This document shows, one piece after another, positions 28,588 through 35,633 of a DNA stretch of 51,452 nt (positions are counted from its first letter, which is position 1; every line of letters begins with the position of its first letter). The stretch comes from Bacteriovorax stolpii. Its GTDB lineage: Bacteria > Bdellovibrionota > Bacteriovoracia > Bacteriovoracales > Bacteriovoracaceae. The notes under the pieces are model-generated. The model was given only the letters and a program-made list of their open reading frames with translations, was not told where the DNA came from and did not search any database. The DNA is taken from contig CAMDQH010000016.1 of the NCBI GenBank assembly GCA_945905815.1, positions 1-51,452 of the forward strand. Direction: 5' to 3'. The position numbers and the translations under genes were made by a program.

Positions 28588-29433
28588 CTAAGCTTTTTTT
28601 GTAAGAGTCTCTTTAATGAGATTAACAACTTCAAATTGGATTTCTTTGTCGTCATCTAATTCAGTATGATCGCGAGGAGAAAGAATATTTTTAACCGAAG
28701 TCATTTCATGTCGGCGGGCCACATGGGGTCCATCGTTTAAAAGAAAGTTATTTTCACCAAAAACATTTAGATGATTTTTTACATTTTGAGGAACGATATC
28801 ATTATCTGCACCAACCGCATCTATCATGACCAGTAAATCAACCTTTCTAAATCCATGCTCTAATGAATCAAGTTCTTCAGCAACTTCAAGGGCCGTATCA
28901 CCACCAAAACTATGCCCTACTAATATCACAGGCTGGTCCTGTTTCACTTTTTTAATTTCTTCTATAATATCTTCGTGCTCATTCCAGTTAAAAGTTTTTG
29001 ACCCCTCAACTGCATCTGCTATTTTTCCTACCCCCGCATAACCACGCTCAGATGTTGAAGGTGAACTAAACAAATCAAGGCCCTTGATAAAAATAATCGC
29101 TGGTTTTTTGAGCGAATATTCTTTAACAGGAAGATCGATGTCAGGAGTTTTTTTAATATCTGGTTTTTTAAATTCCGGTTTATCAGGTTTTGTTTCGGGA
29201 AGTTTAGGTAAATCAGGAGTTGGAATCGAAGGCGTCGGCACACTCGGTAAACTTACTGTTGGAGCTGAGGCAGGCTTACTTAACTCAACTTTATAATCTG
29301 GTGCAGGCTTAGTTTGCAAAAGTTTAGGATCAATTATTTTAGGATCTGTTTTTGCTACAGCAGCTGCCTTGGCCGGATTGGCCCGATTCTGAGACTGAAG
29401 CATAGATCCATAGGTTGTTAGGTCAGTTTTCAC
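28588..29433 (-). CDS. Alpha/beta hydrolase with N-terminal Pro-rich segment
   Basis: 281 residues with no signal peptide. Residues about 55-110 are rich in Pro, Lys and Asp in a repeated K-P-D pattern, forming an extended linker. The hydrolase part starts near 110 with AIIFIKGLDLF and has the nucleophile elbow VGHSFGGDTAL. A later Asp (VMIDAVGADND) and His (RDHTELDD) could complete the triad. It resembles small esterase or thioesterase-type hydrolases. Substrate unknown. Localisation is also open, because the Pro-rich part could tie it to another protein. Confidence 0.72.
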   Translation of the reverse strand: MKTDLTTYGSMLQSQNRANPAKAAAVAKTDPKIIDPKLLQTKPAPDYKVELSKPASAPTVSLPSVPTPSIPTPDLPKLPETKPDKPEFKKPDIKKTPDIDLPVKEYSLKKPAIIFIKGLDLFSSPSTSERGYAGVGKIADAVEGSKTFNWNEHEDIIEEIKKVKQDQPVILVGHSFGGDTALEVAEELDSLEHGFRKVDLLVMIDAVGADNDIVPQNVKNHLNVFGENNFLLNDGPHVARRHEMTSVKNILSPRDHTELDDDKEIQFEVVNLIKETLTKKA

Positions 29434-29541: not shown

Positions 29542-30297
29542 ATGAAAGCTGTAGGTTATATACTGTTATTGATTCTCCTAAGCTGCGGTAAACAATCGCT
29601 TAAGAAGTCTTCAACTACCAAACAAAACGTCTCAGCTCTTTACCAGGCACAGGAAATTCGAGTAAAAGTTTATTACGAGGTTGGGGCCGAGCCCTACATC
29701 TCAGATAATCCACTTTTAGAATATTGGACCATCCTCGAGCAAAATCTTAAGGCACTCTTCGCTGGAAGAAAGATTGAGCCACAAATTAGAGTCCCAAAAT
29801 CATTGCAAGAGATGAGCTTAATTCCTGCTTCAGGTGATGTGAGTTGGAGCATTGATGATGTCCTCAAACTCTCCAATAAGACTGCCACAAGCTCAAGTGC
29901 AACCACCTTCGAGATTTATTTTTTAAATGGTCACGCTGCAGAGAATCCGGGCATTATTGGTTTTCATATCGATAGAACTAAGATTATCGCTATTTTTAAA
30001 GATGTCGTTCGTTCAACCGGTACTCTCGACCCACTTCAGCTAGTCCCGAAATATGTAGAACAATCAACATTAGTACACGAAATGGGTCACGCCTTAGGTT
30101 TAGTTAACAATGGTGTTCCAATGCAAGTCAATCATCAGGACAAAGTTCATGGATCTCACTGTACGAATTATAAATGTGTGATGTATTGGTCAAATGAGGG
30201 CACGAGCAATCTTATGCAATTTGCCCAAGAAGCCGCGTCAAACGGAACTATTATTATGTTCGATGATAAATGCTTGAAAGACGCTCGTTCTTTTTAG
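29542..30297 (+). CDS. Metzincin-like metalloprotease lipoprotein
   Basis: 251 residues with lipobox LLSCG (Cys15), so the protein is lipid-anchored. The zinc site is HEMGHALGLVNNG, which matches HExxHxxG with Asn or a later residue in place of the usual third His. CVMYWS is a fitting Met-turn. This is the membrane-metalloprotease type seen in Bdellovibrio relatives. It would cut protein at the periplasmic or outer face. The ceramidase gene starts 11 bp downstream, so co-transcription is likely. Confidence 0.83.
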   Translation: MKAVGYILLLILLSCGKQSLKKSSTTKQNVSALYQAQEIRVKVYYEVGAEPYISDNPLLEYWTILEQNLKALFAGRKIEPQIRVPKSLQEMSLIPASGDVSWSIDDVLKLSNKTATSSSATTFEIYFLNGHAAENPGIIGFHIDRTKIIAIFKDVVRSTGTLDPLQLVPKYVEQSTLVHEMGHALGLVNNGVPMQVNHQDKVHGSHCTNYKCVMYWSNEGTSNLMQFAQEAASNGTIIMFDDKCLKDARSF

Positions 30298-30308: not shown

Positions 30309-31934
30309 ATGAAATTAAAAGCAGGATTCGGAAAGCATGAGACCACATGCTTTATACCAGGTATTGGAATGATGGGTTGGGGTCAAACCAGCAACACAGT
30401 CAAAGAAGTGGGCACTCCCCTTTTTGCGCGCGCCATGTTCATGCAAGATGAAGATAAAAAGATTTTTATTTTAGTGCACTTGGAACAGGCGTTCGTCACA
30501 ATGGCGATTACCGAAGAAGTTCTCAAAACAATAAATATCCACTACCCTGATTGGAATATAAGTTATGCCAATTTGATGATAACTGCCCAACACACACATT
30601 CAGCGCCCGGTGGTTATGGCCATTACCCATTTTATAATTTCACTATTCCTGGATTTCAGTTAAAAGTTTTCAGTACCATCTGTAATGGAATCCTAGAAGC
30701 AGTTAAAGCGGCCCATAAAGACCTAGGCCCAGTAAGTATTCATTGGGGTAAACATAAAATCAGTGAAGAGAAAGATGTCGCCTTCAATCGATCAATGGGG
30801 GCATACTTAAATAATAAAGACTCTCTGAAGATAAAAAAAGAAGAATGGCATTTAGGAATCAACCGTGAAATGCAAGGTTTAATTTTTTCTGATGATCAAG
30901 GCAAAGTAAAAGCTCACATAAATTGGTTCGGCGTTCATGCCACAAGTGTTTCAAGCCTTAATCACCGAATCCATCATGACAATAAGGGCGTTGCAGCTGC
31001 CCTGTATGAAAAATCTCATCCCGGCACGACCGCATTTTTCATGCAAGAAGCTGCTGGAGATGTATCTCCCAATTACATTTGGGATAAAAGTATAAAATTA
31101 ATGCGCGGAAAATTCAGAGATCAATACGAAAGTACTGAAAACAACGGTGAGATACAGTTCCGTGAATCTGAACAAATTGGAAAAGAAAAAGAAGTTAAGG
31201 GAAATATTCAATGCTTTCACCAATTCATGGATATGTCTCTTGAAGTAGCACCTGCTGCCCACGGTGTGGCATTTTTTGAAGGGACAGCAGAAGGTCCAGG
31301 TATACCAAAGGCCCTGGGAACAGTAGTAAAAGCCGTCGCTAGATTCGTAAAGAAAAAAAATCTTTTGCGACAACCGGAACTACATCAAAAATTTTATGAA
31401 GCCCACGCCCCTAAAGATATTCTTCTTGATCATCGAAATGGATCATTTATAGGGATTCCATTATCCGTTTGGAAAAAGTTACCACCCATGCCTGAGCCTT
31501 CAGTGGAAGCTTTTAGAAAATGTGCTGCCAACGAATCACTCAATACCCTCCCATGGGCCCCGGCCATTTTACCTTTTCAAATTATCGTTATAGGCCCGAT
31601 ACTAATTGCAGCAGTCCCGGGAGAAATTACGACAACCTCTGCTAAAAGATTAAAAGATGCAATTCAAACTCAACTTCAAGACCATAATATCGAAAGGGTG
31701 ATTATATCTTCTTATTCCAACGCTTTTATGGGTTACATAACTACACCTGAAGAATATGCCACCCAAAGCTATGAAGGGGGCCATACAATATTTGGGAGTG
31801 GAACCCTTAGAGGGATTATCAAGGGCTTCGCGGGAATTGTAGAGGAGTTTAAAGATAAGAAGGTTAACCCTCTAAAAATTAAGGACCCCTTCCATTTCCC
31901 AAAAGAAGAACTAGAACGCAGAACTGTACGATAA
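30309..31934 (+). CDS. Neutral ceramidase, short form without signal peptide
   Basis: 541 residues from the ATG at 30309. It aligns with the Pseudomonas neutral ceramidase at GIGMMGWG, AQHTHSAPGGYGHYPFYN (zinc His95 and His97), INWFGVHATS (His210), HDNKG and AGDVSPN with nucleophile Ser253. Ceramidase hydrolyses ceramide to a sphingoid base and fatty acid. Usual bacterial forms are about 650 residues, exported, with a C-terminal Ig-like domain. Here both the export signal and that domain are missing, so it may act in the cytoplasm. A sphingomyelinase-like gene follows after 76 bp. Confidence 0.9.
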   Translation: MKLKAGFGKHETTCFIPGIGMMGWGQTSNTVKEVGTPLFARAMFMQDEDKKIFILVHLEQAFVTMAITEEVLKTINIHYPDWNISYANLMITAQHTHSAPGGYGHYPFYNFTIPGFQLKVFSTICNGILEAVKAAHKDLGPVSIHWGKHKISEEKDVAFNRSMGAYLNNKDSLKIKKEEWHLGINREMQGLIFSDDQGKVKAHINWFGVHATSVSSLNHRIHHDNKGVAAALYEKSHPGTTAFFMQEAAGDVSPNYIWDKSIKLMRGKFRDQYESTENNGEIQFRESEQIGKEKEVKGNIQCFHQFMDMSLEVAPAAHGVAFFEGTAEGPGIPKALGTVVKAVARFVKKKNLLRQPELHQKFYEAHAPKDILLDHRNGSFIGIPLSVWKKLPPMPEPSVEAFRKCAANESLNTLPWAPAILPFQIIVIGPILIAAVPGEITTTSAKRLKDAIQTQLQDHNIERVIISSYSNAFMGYITTPEEYATQSYEGGHTIFGSGTLRGIIKGFAGIVEEFKDKKVNPLKIKDPFHFPKEELERRTVR

Positions 31935-32010
31935 AGCTCGGGTTATCTTGCGATCATAAAATTCCTTAAAAAACCGATATGAATCATAGTTAATCCTTAG
32001 GATGGTAAAA

Positions 32011-32868
32011 ATGAAATTATTTGTTCTCCTGCTCATTCTACCCCTGTCAGCAATGGCACAGGAACTCAAAGTTCTTACTTGGAATACTTTCCTTATTCCC
32101 CCGCCATGGAACATAACAAAACAAAAAGAACGTGCCAAAATCATGGCAGAAAAGCTGCCGACACTTGGACACGACATCATGTTTTTTCAAGAAGCATTCT
32201 ATAATAAAAAACGAAAGCTTATAATCAATTCGCTGAAAACAAAACTTCCCTATATCGCAATACCCACACCAGGAAGAAAGTTATCTCAGATTCAGGATTC
32301 CGGACTTTTGATAGCAAGTAAGTTTCCGATGGAAGTTTTAGATCAGGTTATTTTCAGAGATTGTGCAAAGTCTGATTGCATGGCCTCAAAGAGTGCGATC
32401 ATAGTAGAGATAACTCTGCCTAATAATAAAAAAATTCAAATGATTAACACTCATTTGCAGGCATGGAATGAACCCAACACATTCGCTGTACGAAAAAAAC
32501 AACTCATTCAAATCAGAGAAATGATGGCGGCACATAATAAACCAGGAATCCCTCAGGTCTTGGTCGGTGATCTGAATATTGATGGAAAAATAGAACCTGA
32601 ATATTCAGAATCAATTTCACTCATGGGACTGACTTCCACTCCATTAGATGGGCCTCTCACTGCTACAAATGGATTTTCAACAGCAGGATGTTTTAAAAAT
32701 CCAGGCGGAACTCAAGAAGGTGAATGGTTGGACCATCTATGGCTAAATGCAAATGGCACCGAAACCACCATTACCTCTAAAACAGTACTTCCAATTTTGG
32801 GCAAGCTTAAATCGGGTGAGTGTCCATTGTCAGATCATTATGCCGTTGAAGCGCTTATCAAACTATGA
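32011..32868 (+). CDS. Secreted sphingomyelinase-like phosphodiesterase (EEP superfamily)
   Basis: 285 residues from the ATG at 32011, where AGGA lies 8 bp upstream; the ATG at 32002 has no such site. Signal peptide MKLFVLLLILPLSAMAQ. Family residues: Glu61 (FFQEAF), His148 (NTHLQA), Asp187 and Asn189 (VGDLNID), Asp241-His242 (LDHLW) and His276 (LSDHYAVEA). The THLQA and SDHYAVEA pattern resembles Bacillus sphingomyelinase more than nucleases of the same fold. It would release a phospho-headgroup from sphingolipid outside the cytoplasm using a divalent metal. Its stop overlaps the next start as ATGA. Confidence 0.85.
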   Translation: MKLFVLLLILPLSAMAQELKVLTWNTFLIPPPWNITKQKERAKIMAEKLPTLGHDIMFFQEAFYNKKRKLIINSLKTKLPYIAIPTPGRKLSQIQDSGLLIASKFPMEVLDQVIFRDCAKSDCMASKSAIIVEITLPNNKKIQMINTHLQAWNEPNTFAVRKKQLIQIREMMAAHNKPGIPQVLVGDLNIDGKIEPEYSESISLMGLTSTPLDGPLTATNGFSTAGCFKNPGGTQEGEWLDHLWLNANGTETTITSKTVLPILGKLKSGECPLSDHYAVEALIKL

Positions 32869-34028
32869 TGGATCAATACAAAAATTTTCTTCACGCATTA
32901 AAAGATGCTCCCAGTCCTTCGCTCTTCCTAGACCAGGAAGCTTTTTACAAAAATCTAAATTGGGTAATTTTAAACTCTGGTAACAAAAATATACGCATAG
33001 CTACAAAGTCTATTCGTTCAGTAGAAATTCTCAAAAAGATCCATGCCTCTAATCCCGTTTTTCAGGGGTTCATGACATACACCTTAGAAGAATCTCTTTG
33101 GCTAAGGTCACTCGGCTTAAAAGATCTCTTAATAGGCTACCCAACAACTGATCTTGCCTCTTTAAACAAACTGGCAGAAGACCCTAGAGAAATTGTATTA
33201 ATGGTTGATCGCATCGAGCACCTAGACCTTTTAGAAGAGATTGCATCAGCTAAAAAGACTGTATTTGAAGTGTGTGTTGACCTTGATCTTTCAATGGATT
33301 TACCTGGCGTTCGTTTTGGTGTTTATCGTTCAAATCTCCATGAGGAAAAGCATTTAAGAAATTTTTTATTTCATTTAAAAAAATGCCCACACATTCAATT
33401 GGTTGGGGCCATGGGCTATGAGGCCCAAATTGCAGGAGTTATGGATGAAAACTCGACACTCATGCAAGTTCTTAAACAGCTATCTTTGACACAAATTAAA
33501 AACCGTCGTCTAAAGATGATACAGATCATTCAAGCAGCAGGGCATACACTTAAACTAATTAATGGTGGTGGCACAGGCAGCTTAAAGCATACAAACAAAG
33601 AAGAAGTCGTAAATGAGATAACAATCGGTTCTGCCTTCTTTGCCCCGGTACTTTTTGACCACTACCAAGACTTTAAACTATCACCCGCACTTTTTTTTAG
33701 TTCTCCTATAGTCAGGCAACCGGCAAAAAACATATTCACGATCTTAGGCGGTGGATATATAGCTTCTGGTCAAACTGATGAAATAAAACAACCACAGGCG
33801 TGGCTTCCAATCGGCCTTGCACTTATCAAAAATGAAGGCGCAGGAGAAGTTCAGACTCCGCTTAAATACAATGGACCTCTTAAGCTAGGAATTGGTGATC
33901 TAATCATTTTGAGACATGCCAAAGCGGGTGAAATTTGCGAACGCTTTAATCAAATACATATTATTGAAGGTAACAGAATTACTGAGACAGTAAGTACCTA
34001 TCGCGGCGAAGGTAAGTGTTTTTTATAA
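32865..34028 (+). CDS. PLP fold-III amino acid deaminase/aldolase-like enzyme
   Basis: 387 residues with the alanine-racemase-type barrel. The PLP Lys is in IRIATKSIRS near the N-terminus. GVRFGVYRSN and LINGGGTGS match the phosphate-binding loops. The C-terminal RHAKAGEICERF and STYRGEGKCFL segments match enzymes named amino acid deaminase/aldolase in actinobacteria, related to D-threonine aldolase. It would act on a beta-hydroxy amino acid or similar amine in the cytoplasm. Coupling by ATGA to the sphingomyelinase-like gene raises the possibility of a sphingoid-related substrate, which is only inference. Its 3' end overlaps a receiver gene by 6 bp. Confidence 0.85.
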   Translation: MMDQYKNFLHALKDAPSPSLFLDQEAFYKNLNWVILNSGNKNIRIATKSIRSVEILKKIHASNPVFQGFMTYTLEESLWLRSLGLKDLLIGYPTTDLASLNKLAEDPREIVLMVDRIEHLDLLEEIASAKKTVFEVCVDLDLSMDLPGVRFGVYRSNLHEEKHLRNFLFHLKKCPHIQLVGAMGYEAQIAGVMDENSTLMQVLKQLSLTQIKNRRLKMIQIIQAAGHTLKLINGGGTGSLKHTNKEEVVNEITIGSAFFAPVLFDHYQDFKLSPALFFSSPIVRQPAKNIFTILGGGYIASGQTDEIKQPQAWLPIGLALIKNEGAGEVQTPLKYNGPLKLGIGDLIILRHAKAGEICERFNQIHIIEGNRITETVSTYRGEGKCFL

Positions 34029-34433
34029 TGTTCTACTTTTTTCATCCAAAACATAATCTGAATCAAAATAATACTTTTTAACTAGTTCTAAAAGATCTTG
34101 GAGATTAATTGGTTTATCAAGTTTAATGACATACTTGGGTATTTTGATCTGATCTGACAAAAAACCAGTACTTAAGGCCAAGGGAATCTTTCCAAGTGTT
34201 TCAGAATATTTCTCATCCAATAAGGAAATGAATTCGACACCATTCATAGTTGGCATCATATAATCAACAATGATGAGACTCGGAAGATCATCAGGCGAGA
34301 GCTGGGACAGATGCTCTTCGGCCAGCTTGGCACTTTCAAAAGAAATAGTCTTAATATTTTCGAATTCCAGAGCATATTCAATGACTCCACGGATATCCTC
34401 ATCATCATCGATGATGCATATAGGGTGATTCAT
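34023..34433 (-). CDS. Single-domain response regulator
   Basis: 136 residues of CheY type: acidic pocket at CIIDDDED (residues 6-12), phospho-acceptor Asp57 (IIVDYMMP), Thr/Ser switch region, and Lys in VIKLDKPI. No output domain follows, so it acts by protein contact or phosphotransfer. Its ATG overlaps the stop of the histidine kinase gene (ATGA), which makes it a likely target of that kinase. Confidence 0.93.
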   Translation of the reverse strand: MNHPICIIDDDEDIRGVIEYALEFENIKTISFESAKLAEEHLSQLSPDDLPSLIIVDYMMPTMNGVEFISLLDEKYSETLGKIPLALSTGFLSDQIKIPKYVIKLDKPINLQDLLELVKKYYFDSDYVLDEKSRTL

Positions 34434-35212
34434 AAAAGATCCTTAGAAATGAAATCAACTGTAAAAGTAGAGCCTTTTTCAGGGCAACTCTTTACAGAAA
34501 TTTTACCATTATGGGATTCAACTATTTCTCTAGCAATATACAAACCAAGTCCAAGGCCACTAACTTCAGATGCCGATATCCCACGCTGAAAACGATGAAA
34601 TATTCTTTTTTGATTTTCTTGGGAAATACCATGACCCTGATCTTTAACAGAAAAAGAAATTTTAGTTTTCTTTTTAATTAATGTGACCTCAATTGGTAAA
34701 TCCTTACTAAATTTCAAAGCATTATTGATGATATTATGAAAAACCTGAGCAACTCTTTCACAATCTCCCCAAAGAAAAATATTTGTATCTACCTTTAATG
34801 AAATCCGATTTATCTGATTTAAACTAAACTTTAGTACTACATCATGAAGAAGATCACTAACATTGAAATCATCTTTCGTCATACAGAGTTGACCAGACCT
34901 AATGCGAGAAATATCCAGCATGTCCTCCACTAGTTTTATTAAACGTGATGTTTGAGCATCAATCTGATTAACGAGGCGATCAACTTTATCCTTTGAATAA
35001 GGAAGACTTTGATCCTTAGTTGAATATCTTTTGAATACTTGTGTATGAAGTCTCATCGTCGTTAGAGGAGTTTTAAGTTCATGGCTTGCAATGGATAAAA
35101 ACTCATCGCGGTAAAACAAGGCCTCCATTAAAGTCTCAAGGTTGAGACCCTCTGTTTGGAGATCAGATCTTTTAAGATTTTGCATGGCCCAATATTTATC
35201 AGCGTCTCGCAT
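34430..35212 (-). CDS. Soluble histidine kinase
   Basis: 260 residues without membrane segments or sensor domain. The HisKA domain holds the phospho-acceptor His44 in IASHELKTPL. The ATP-binding domain shows HNIINNALKFS (N box), DQGHGIS (G1) and GLGLGLYIA (G2). The short N-terminal stretch suggests it receives its signal through a partner, perhaps the receiver encoded just upstream. It is flanked by two receivers in one operon. Confidence 0.92.
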   Translation of the reverse strand: MRDADKYWAMQNLKRSDLQTEGLNLETLMEALFYRDEFLSIASHELKTPLTTMRLHTQVFKRYSTKDQSLPYSKDKVDRLVNQIDAQTSRLIKLVEDMLDISRIRSGQLCMTKDDFNVSDLLHDVVLKFSLNQINRISLKVDTNIFLWGDCERVAQVFHNIINNALKFSKDLPIEVTLIKKKTKISFSVKDQGHGISQENQKRIFHRFQRGISASEVSGLGLGLYIAREIVESHNGKISVKSCPEKGSTFTVDFISKDLL

Positions 35213-35258
35213 TCTTGTATATCAAAACAATCCTACCAAGCTTTACTTAACCATAAGA

Positions 35259-35633
35259 TTACATGGAAACAATGCCTAAAACCTTAGACAGAAAGAGTTC
35301 TAGATCAAAGGGTTTTTCAATAAAATCATTTGCCTTCAGTGCATTCGTCCTATTCTCAACATCAATTTGACCAGATATCACTATGATTGGTATTTTTTTG
35401 CAGCCTTGTATCGATCTTAGACCAGAAACAAATTCCTCGGCGGTCATAAAAGGAAAAGTTAGGTCCATGAGAATTAAGTCGGGAACAACTTGCGTTTCCT
35501 CTAAACATTTTAGAGCGGCTTTACCATGGGCGGTCCCTATCACATTAAAACCCTCAGAACGAAGAATCTCTCCGTAGAGATTAAGGGAATCAGGGTTGTC
35601 TTCAATTATGAGGATGGTCTTAGTTGTATTCAT
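35259..35633 (-). CDS. Single-domain response regulator, first gene of the set
   Basis: 124 residues: acidic pocket IIEDN, phospho-acceptor Asp57 (LILMDLTFP), switch Ser in VISGQ and Lys in IEKPF. No output domain. It precedes the kinase by 46 bp, with a good start at 35633. Input receiver or second output of the same phosphorelay; the sequence does not decide which. Confidence 0.92.
   Translation of the reverse strand: MNTTKTILIIEDNPDSLNLYGEILRSEGFNVIGTAHGKAALKCLEETQVVPDLILMDLTFPFMTAEEFVSGLRSIQGCKKIPIIVISGQIDVENRTNALKANDFIEKPFDLELFLSKVLGIVSM

Follow-up and report, generated by a model that had tools for sequence, protein, structure and literature searches.

A ceramidase gene beside a fold-type III PLP enzyme gene in a Bacteriovorax-type genome and a candidate route for sphingoid base breakdown

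The three-gene cluster and its enzymes

The window analyzed here, a stretch of 51,452 nucleotides of contig CAMDQH010000016.1 (Bacteriovorax stolpii in the assembly record), carries three genes in a row which encode a neutral ceramidase, an exported sphingomyelinase-like phosphodiesterase and a pyridoxal phosphate (PLP) enzyme, and which may together take sphingolipids apart. An earlier note, made from the sequence alone, had described the three genes with their positions in a row on one strand and the coupling of the last two through an ATGA overlap, all of which was borne out by the open reading frames (ORFs) and by the junction as read in the sequence. In the following, G000 denotes the genome to which the window belongs, the other G numbers denote relatives in the same phylum and L numbers denote loci.

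30309..31934, + strand: short neutral ceramidase lacking both signal peptide and C-terminal domain (PF04734, aligned to 2zws and 4wgk)
32002..32868, + strand: exported sphingomyelinase-C-like phosphodiesterase of the EEP fold (closest solved structures, catalytic residues)
32865..34028, + strand: fold-type III PLP enzyme with predicted C2-C3 aldolase activity on a C1-oxidized sphingoid base (AlphaFold2 model, genomic partners)

The product of the first gene matched PF04734 (Ceramidase_alk) with 309.7 bits against a cut-off of 32.1. The ORF tool placed its start at ATG 30270, and ATG 30309 agrees with the starts in relatives. Residues H97/H99, R160, H204, E411 and Y448 of the Pseudomonas aeruginosa enzyme (2zws) corresponded to H108/H110, R174, H223, E452 and Y489 of the window protein when numbered from ATG 30270, the His95/His97 of the earlier note being the same H108/H110 counted from ATG 30309. 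At 2zws H97, H204, E411, Y448 and R160, known as the zinc ligands (H, H, E and Y) and the catalytic arginine, the window protein was identical and ten relatives were invariant, and the assignment to the neutral ceramidases was thereby upheld. The catalytic domain and the zinc-site residues are common to this protein and the P. aeruginosa (2zws) and human (4wgk) neutral ceramidases. In contrast to these, the PLP-linked form has neither signal peptide nor C-terminal domain, and it reached 186.6 bits against a cut-off of 1200 for the classical secreted neutral ceramidase (NF041649). Just the N-terminal Pfam domain of the family was present in 10 of 10 relatives scanned, and the ceramidases adjoining PLP genes in relatives were likewise devoid of signal peptide and C-terminal domain, with the exception of L180. 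We know of no assay of such leaderless short ceramidases.

The second gene product carries a signal peptide, predicting export, and scored right at the cut-off of Pfam Exo_endo_phos (24.5 bits). Its best solved relatives were all sphingomyelinase C (5e-13 to 2e-8), and it has the conserved catalytic residues E/H/D-N/D-H and secretion in common with bacterial sphingomyelinase C (7cne, 2ddr and 3k55). On the other hand, its 63.9 bits for the sphingomyelin phosphodiesterase family TIGR03395 amount to about one quarter of the cut-off of 248.2. Judged by its sequence we call the protein sphingomyelinase-like and go no further, which is also how the earlier note had described it.

The third gene product matched Pfam Ala_racemase_N above the cut-off (43.3 bits), and AlphaFold2, run on 46 sequences, yielded a model with a predicted local distance difference test (pLDDT) score of 93 and the fold-type III architecture that had been anticipated. 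The best structural matches were D-threonine aldolase (4v15) and the beta-hydroxyaspartate aldolase BhcC (6qkb), with Z 37.2 and a root-mean-square deviation of 2.4 over 350 residues, followed by D-threo-3-hydroxyaspartate dehydratase (Z 34), D-serine dehydratase (Z 33) and alanine racemase (Z at most 27). With 4v15 and 6qkb the enzyme shares the fold-III barrel and beta domain, the PLP lysine (the invariant K48) and a structural match over the whole length. In contrast, its identity to the two is 17-19%, and the metal motif of D-threonine aldolase (H-x-D or H-x-C near the C terminus) is replaced by an invariant K-x-G-E. Profile-profile alignment placed the BhcC metal motif GHCDPT on RHAKAGE of the PLP family, in which K353, G355 and E356 are invariant, H351 is not strictly conserved and the second metal ligand is missing, and the score for the BhcC family itself (NF045642) was 47.5 bits against a cut-off of 690. 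We rejected a classical D-threonine aldolase identity because the metal motif is absent. The modeled enzyme nevertheless probably acts in the manner of a beta-hydroxy-amino-acid lyase of fold III.

Linkage of the ceramidase and PLP genes within and beyond the phylum

In a survey of 154 genomes of the phylum the ceramidase was present in 15 and the PLP enzyme in 21, while nine genomes had both (2.05 expected, P = 9e-6). The two genes were neighbors in eight of these nine, either on the same strand (G000 and G016), head to head (G114, G132, G067 and G144) or within 1.5 kb of each other (G131 and G102). Chance adjacency amounts to about 0.3% per genome, for genomes that are mutually related, and the ceramidase-PLP neighborhood is far beyond chance. 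The comparison of gene neighborhoods across Bdellovibrionota that the earlier note had recommended thus sustained this pair but not the complete trio, as the phosphodiesterase (EEP) gene adjoined the ceramidase gene only in G000 and G016. For this reason we regard the ceramidase and PLP genes as the core and the EEP gene as a local addition to the cluster. G132 has a weak EEP homologue (no TIGR03395 match) directly next to the aldehyde dehydrogenase (ALDH) gene of its cluster, at a distance of 3.3 kb to the PLP gene and 4.6 kb to the ceramidase gene.

Clustering of the neighboring genes revealed an ALO-family flavin oxidase adjoining the PLP gene in G016, G134, G101, G100 and G102, as well as a GMC oxidoreductase, together with a small protein (about 150 aa), by the PLP gene in G147, G132, G067, G144, G005, G044 and G116. 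The GMC-type clusters of G067, G144, G132 and G116 also include ALDH. In G016 the order ceramidase-EEP-PLP-ALO forms one operon on one strand with ends overlapping or abutting, and G132 holds EEP, ALDH, GMC, PLP and ceramidase genes inside 7.3 kb.

A wider search, in which genome contigs were scanned with the PLP family as the only seed, returned at least 592 relatives, and the best 80 loci, spread over many phyla, were counted. An ALO gene lay within a few kb of the PLP gene in 47 of the 80, a GMC gene, usually accompanied by ALDH, was found beside it in nine, and a ceramidase gene in seven (one with ALO and one with GMC). ALO and GMC occurred together at none of the 80 loci, among which no neighboring family other than ALO, GMC/ALDH and ceramidase recurred across lineages. 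Within the PLP tree (81 rows, with Ps_L212 excluded from the change counts for its branch length of 10), the linkage to a ceramidase switches 11 times or more and the ALO/GMC state 8 times or more, and we are therefore not dealing with one inherited cluster. Repeated assembly of the same parts favors a shared function over shared descent of a locus. A ceramidase match was present anywhere in the genome in 25 of 49 PLP-bearing genomes, and 19 of these matches were strong.

Several loci showed further features. The PLP gene heads a PLP-GMC-small protein-ALDH run in Pseudomonadales. The small protein accompanying the GMC oxidoreductase measures 130-156 aa and has no Pfam match (L086:10526-10996 and L095:4932-5390), and it sometimes forms a fusion with the aldehyde dehydrogenase (L092:6451-8394). 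An M28 peptidase gene (L235:7193-8398) lies between PLP and ALO on a plasmid of Mycobacterium riyadhense, where it might stand in for the ceramidase as an amide hydrolase. The PLP-ALO pair of a Tsukamurella plasmid (L266:4857-9889) is located two genes from gcvT, which would suit a glycine product and may be a coincidence.

Other genes around the cluster

29542..30297, + strand: metzincin-like lipoprotein (lipobox LLSCG, HEMGHALGLVNNG, VMYW), ends 11 bp upstream of the ceramidase gene
28588..29433, - strand: alpha/beta hydrolase, possible accessory gene (Thioesterase PF00975, 27.9 bits)

The metzincin-like lipoprotein, in which an HExxHxxGxx motif was seen, gave no match in a Pfam scan. Its gene has the distance to the ceramidase gene that the earlier note had given and is probably co-transcribed with the ceramidase run, but lies outside the conserved module: it does not adjoin the ceramidase gene in G016 in the neighborhood comparison. 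Similarly, the membrane hydroxylase gene (FA_hydroxylase) was found 3.3 kb beyond the cluster as described, but on the opposite strand. Neither of these genes nor the nearby M28 peptidase recurred in the clusters of relatives, and all three were rejected as module members; the M28 genes adjoining PLP in G044 and G090 are just 26-27% identical to that of the window. The alpha/beta hydrolase, a possible lipase of the same module, is encoded close to the ceramidase in four of the phylum's genomes, with identities of 56% (G016), 38% (G114) and 40% (G150) among its relatives there. Genes for a response regulator, a histidine kinase and a second response regulator (window 34023-35633) converge toward the end of the cluster.

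A candidate route for sphingoid bases and its alternatives

The closest known parallel in parts is the SphR regulon of P. aeruginosa (sphA, sphBCD and cerN), in which SphR and sphingosine induce the ceramidase gene cerN and sphBCD, SphC being an ALO-family oxidase and SphD an Ala_racemase_N/threonine-aldolase-like enzyme (PMC3900636, PMC5150637). Ceramidase, ALO-family oxidase and Ala_racemase_N PLP enzyme are thus also the sphingosine-induced set of this regulon. DiGianivittorio et al. (PMC11893366) reported that sphBC is required for sphingosine consumption, which sphBC mutants fail to achieve, and found sphBCD-like sets by STRING co-occurrence only in Firmicutes, Actinobacteria and Proteobacteria. 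In P. aeruginosa, SphC is secreted through the Tat pathway and has a cytochrome c partner, SphD bears a Tat-type leader and cerN is not linked to the other genes, whereas ceramidase, PLP enzyme and ALO of the window system are without signal peptides and the ceramidase gene stands beside the PLP gene. The SphD-type pairing of a PLP gene with an ALO gene is the one seen at the 47 loci and in the five genomes of the phylum listed above, the ALO gene of G000 itself being unlinked.

A search for Pseudomonas sphD among plasmids returned none, and a draw of 185 gammaproteobacterial genomes returned the centre genome only. Loci of the sphBCD type were found in Pseudomonadaceae by gene order (cytochrome c-ALO-PLP), one of them adjoining crc- and rph-like genes, the gene order of PAO1. 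The SphD rows form a separate deep clade on the tree, and we rejected the window PLP enzyme as an SphD orthologue; the resemblance of the two systems is one of components and logic and does not extend to orthology of the PLP genes. A second Pseudomonadaceae PLP subfamily with a Tat-type leader (L238:7273-8535) is encoded directly downstream of a nitronate-monooxygenase-like gene and away from ALO.

We lean toward reading the cluster as a catabolic module for external sphingolipids, from prey or the environment, in which ceramide is cut, C1 is oxidized and the base is cleaved by PLP-dependent retro-aldol chemistry. The exported phosphodiesterase may take off the phospho head group, and the leaderless ceramidase, going by its family and active site, would cut the amide bond to give a fatty acid and a sphingoid base. 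A flavin enzyme, to which both linkage and SphC genetics point, would oxidize the C1 hydroxyl to a 2-amino-3-hydroxy aldehyde or acid; this would be the unlinked single ALO of the window's own genome and, in relatives, the ALO or GMC enzyme encoded inside the cluster. Fold and linkage suggest that the PLP enzyme would split C2-C3 into a long-chain aldehyde and glycine or aminoacetaldehyde, glycine requiring the C1 acid and the aldehyde alone leading to aminoacetaldehyde. An aldehyde dehydrogenase may convert the long-chain aldehyde into a fatty acid, and the ALDH of the GMC-type clusters could instead make the C1 acid. Oxidation of (2S,3R)-sphingosine at C1 changes the C2 descriptor to R, that of a D-configured beta-hydroxy amino acid of the allo type. 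This D alpha-configuration is the one used by D-threonine aldolase-type enzymes, which may carry over to the route proposed here.

The earlier note had proposed a sphingolipid-degrading set with the PLP enzyme acting on the freed base, an idea that gains independent support from the ceramidase-PLP linkage across phyla and from the oxidases such a route needs. The module is real, extends across phyla and is probably sphingolipid-catabolic, and the role of the PLP enzyme in sphingoid breakdown is well motivated but unproven. This role is not as new as the note had held, since a two-step oxidation/aldol route with SphD acting on oxidized sphingosine was already proposed in 2014 (PMC3900636); the ceramidase linkage and the cytoplasmic version appear to be new.

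The window's own genome, rated 100% complete, has no GMC gene and a single ALO gene (G000:C38), which lies outside the cluster and whose product is 60% identical to the ALO of the G016 operon. None of its ten Aminotran_1_2 matches was a serine palmitoyltransferase-type enzyme (alpha-oxoamine synthase); they comprise aspartate-, methionine-, DAP- and other aminotransferases, HisC, SufS (cysteine desulfurase), SHMT, a DegT-type enzyme and a homologue of sphingosine-1-phosphate (S1P) lyase. With no alpha-oxoamine synthase, sphingolipids would come from outside. The S1P lyase homologue (L262:1249-2724, G000:C48; 491 aa) matched S1P lyases from human and from bacteria at 1e-116 to 1e-67 (human SGPL1 1e-116), and its gene adjoins transport and biopolymer-type genes. 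This strong homologue, encoded in a genome that has no serine palmitoyltransferase-type gene, is itself a hint at sphingoid catabolism.

Sphingosine is a bactericidal base. That the module detoxifies it rather than feeding the cell is a somewhat unlikely but serious alternative, in keeping with the protection against sphingosine that sphBC affords P. aeruginosa (PMC11893366). Catabolism fits better, because a ceramidase in the same operon would generate the toxic base, and the chemistry would be unchanged, the difference being one of purpose only.

Less probable is the canonical route, in which the base is phosphorylated and then cleaved by a fold-type I S1P lyase encoded elsewhere, with the PLP enzyme serving some other amine such as the head group. 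The C2-C3 bond of the sphingoid base is the common predicted target, but S1P lyase needs the 1-phosphate, while the cluster enzyme is of fold-type III and has oxidase partners. The lyase homologue of the own genome speaks for this route; its gene is not beside that of the ceramidase, however, and the repeated linkage of PLP genes to ALO, GMC, ALDH and ceramidase genes would be left unexplained.

We give slightly less credence still to a module that degrades other N-acyl amino-alcohol or N-acyl amino-acid lipids through its ceramidase-family enzyme. The short leaderless form, with its score of 187 against 1200 for the NCBIfam neutral ceramidase, and the M28 hydrolase between PLP and ALO on the Mycobacterium plasmid are consistent with this, but all zinc and catalytic positions of the ceramidase are conserved and the SphR parallel points to sphingosine specifically. 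A general role of the PLP enzyme on D-amino acids, as racemase, dehydratase or D-threonine aldolase, with the ceramidase an incidental neighbor, is improbable. Public records do name the family only alanine racemase or amino acid deaminase/aldolase and many copies have no ceramidase gene nearby, yet adjacency was observed in 8 of 9 genomes in the phylum and 7 of 80 loci beyond, with repeated linkage on the tree. Turnover of the bacterium's own lipid, which the earlier note had allowed for, is very improbable: B. stolpii has serine palmitoyltransferase and sphingophosphonolipids (PMC6148460), but the own organism differs from it in having 0 of 10 matches of the synthase type.

Several observations weigh against breakdown of external sphingolipids by the route proposed here. 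The S1P lyase homologue could form a rival end-point and is what most complicates an assignment of C2-C3 cleavage to the PLP enzyme. The latter has not kept the D-threonine aldolase metal site, and we found no biochemistry on the PLP family in the literature. SphD is a deep Tat-exported lineage with approximately 21-23% identity to the window enzyme, no closer than BhcC, and sphD is dispensable for growth of P. aeruginosa on sphingosine (PMC11893366). Most Gram-positive PLP-ALO pairs occur in genomes without a ceramidase, so that the substrate range of the pair could be wider and may also include free sphingoid bases or other amino-alcohols.

More tentatively, and at somewhat below even confidence, we suggest that the catabolic module represents a widespread cytoplasmic sphingoid route free of the 1-phosphate, with interchangeable C1 oxidation by ALO or GMC followed by a fold-III PLP aldolase that has no metal site. 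It would be a second invention of the S1P lyase step, distributed over Bdellovibrionota, Bacteroidota, Bacillota, Chloroflexota, Actinomycetota and Pseudomonadota.

For the disposal of sphingoid bases by bacteria, two genes are known to be needed in P. aeruginosa. The clusters described here tie a ceramidase directly to a PLP aldolase and oxidases in phyla beyond those with sphBCD-like sets. As a specific substrate and product can be named and the cluster enzymes are soluble and leaderless, which suits them to test-tube work, the question of sphingoid degradation becomes directly testable. The findings also point to an ability of some Bacteriovorax-type bacteria to digest sphingolipids that are not of their own making.

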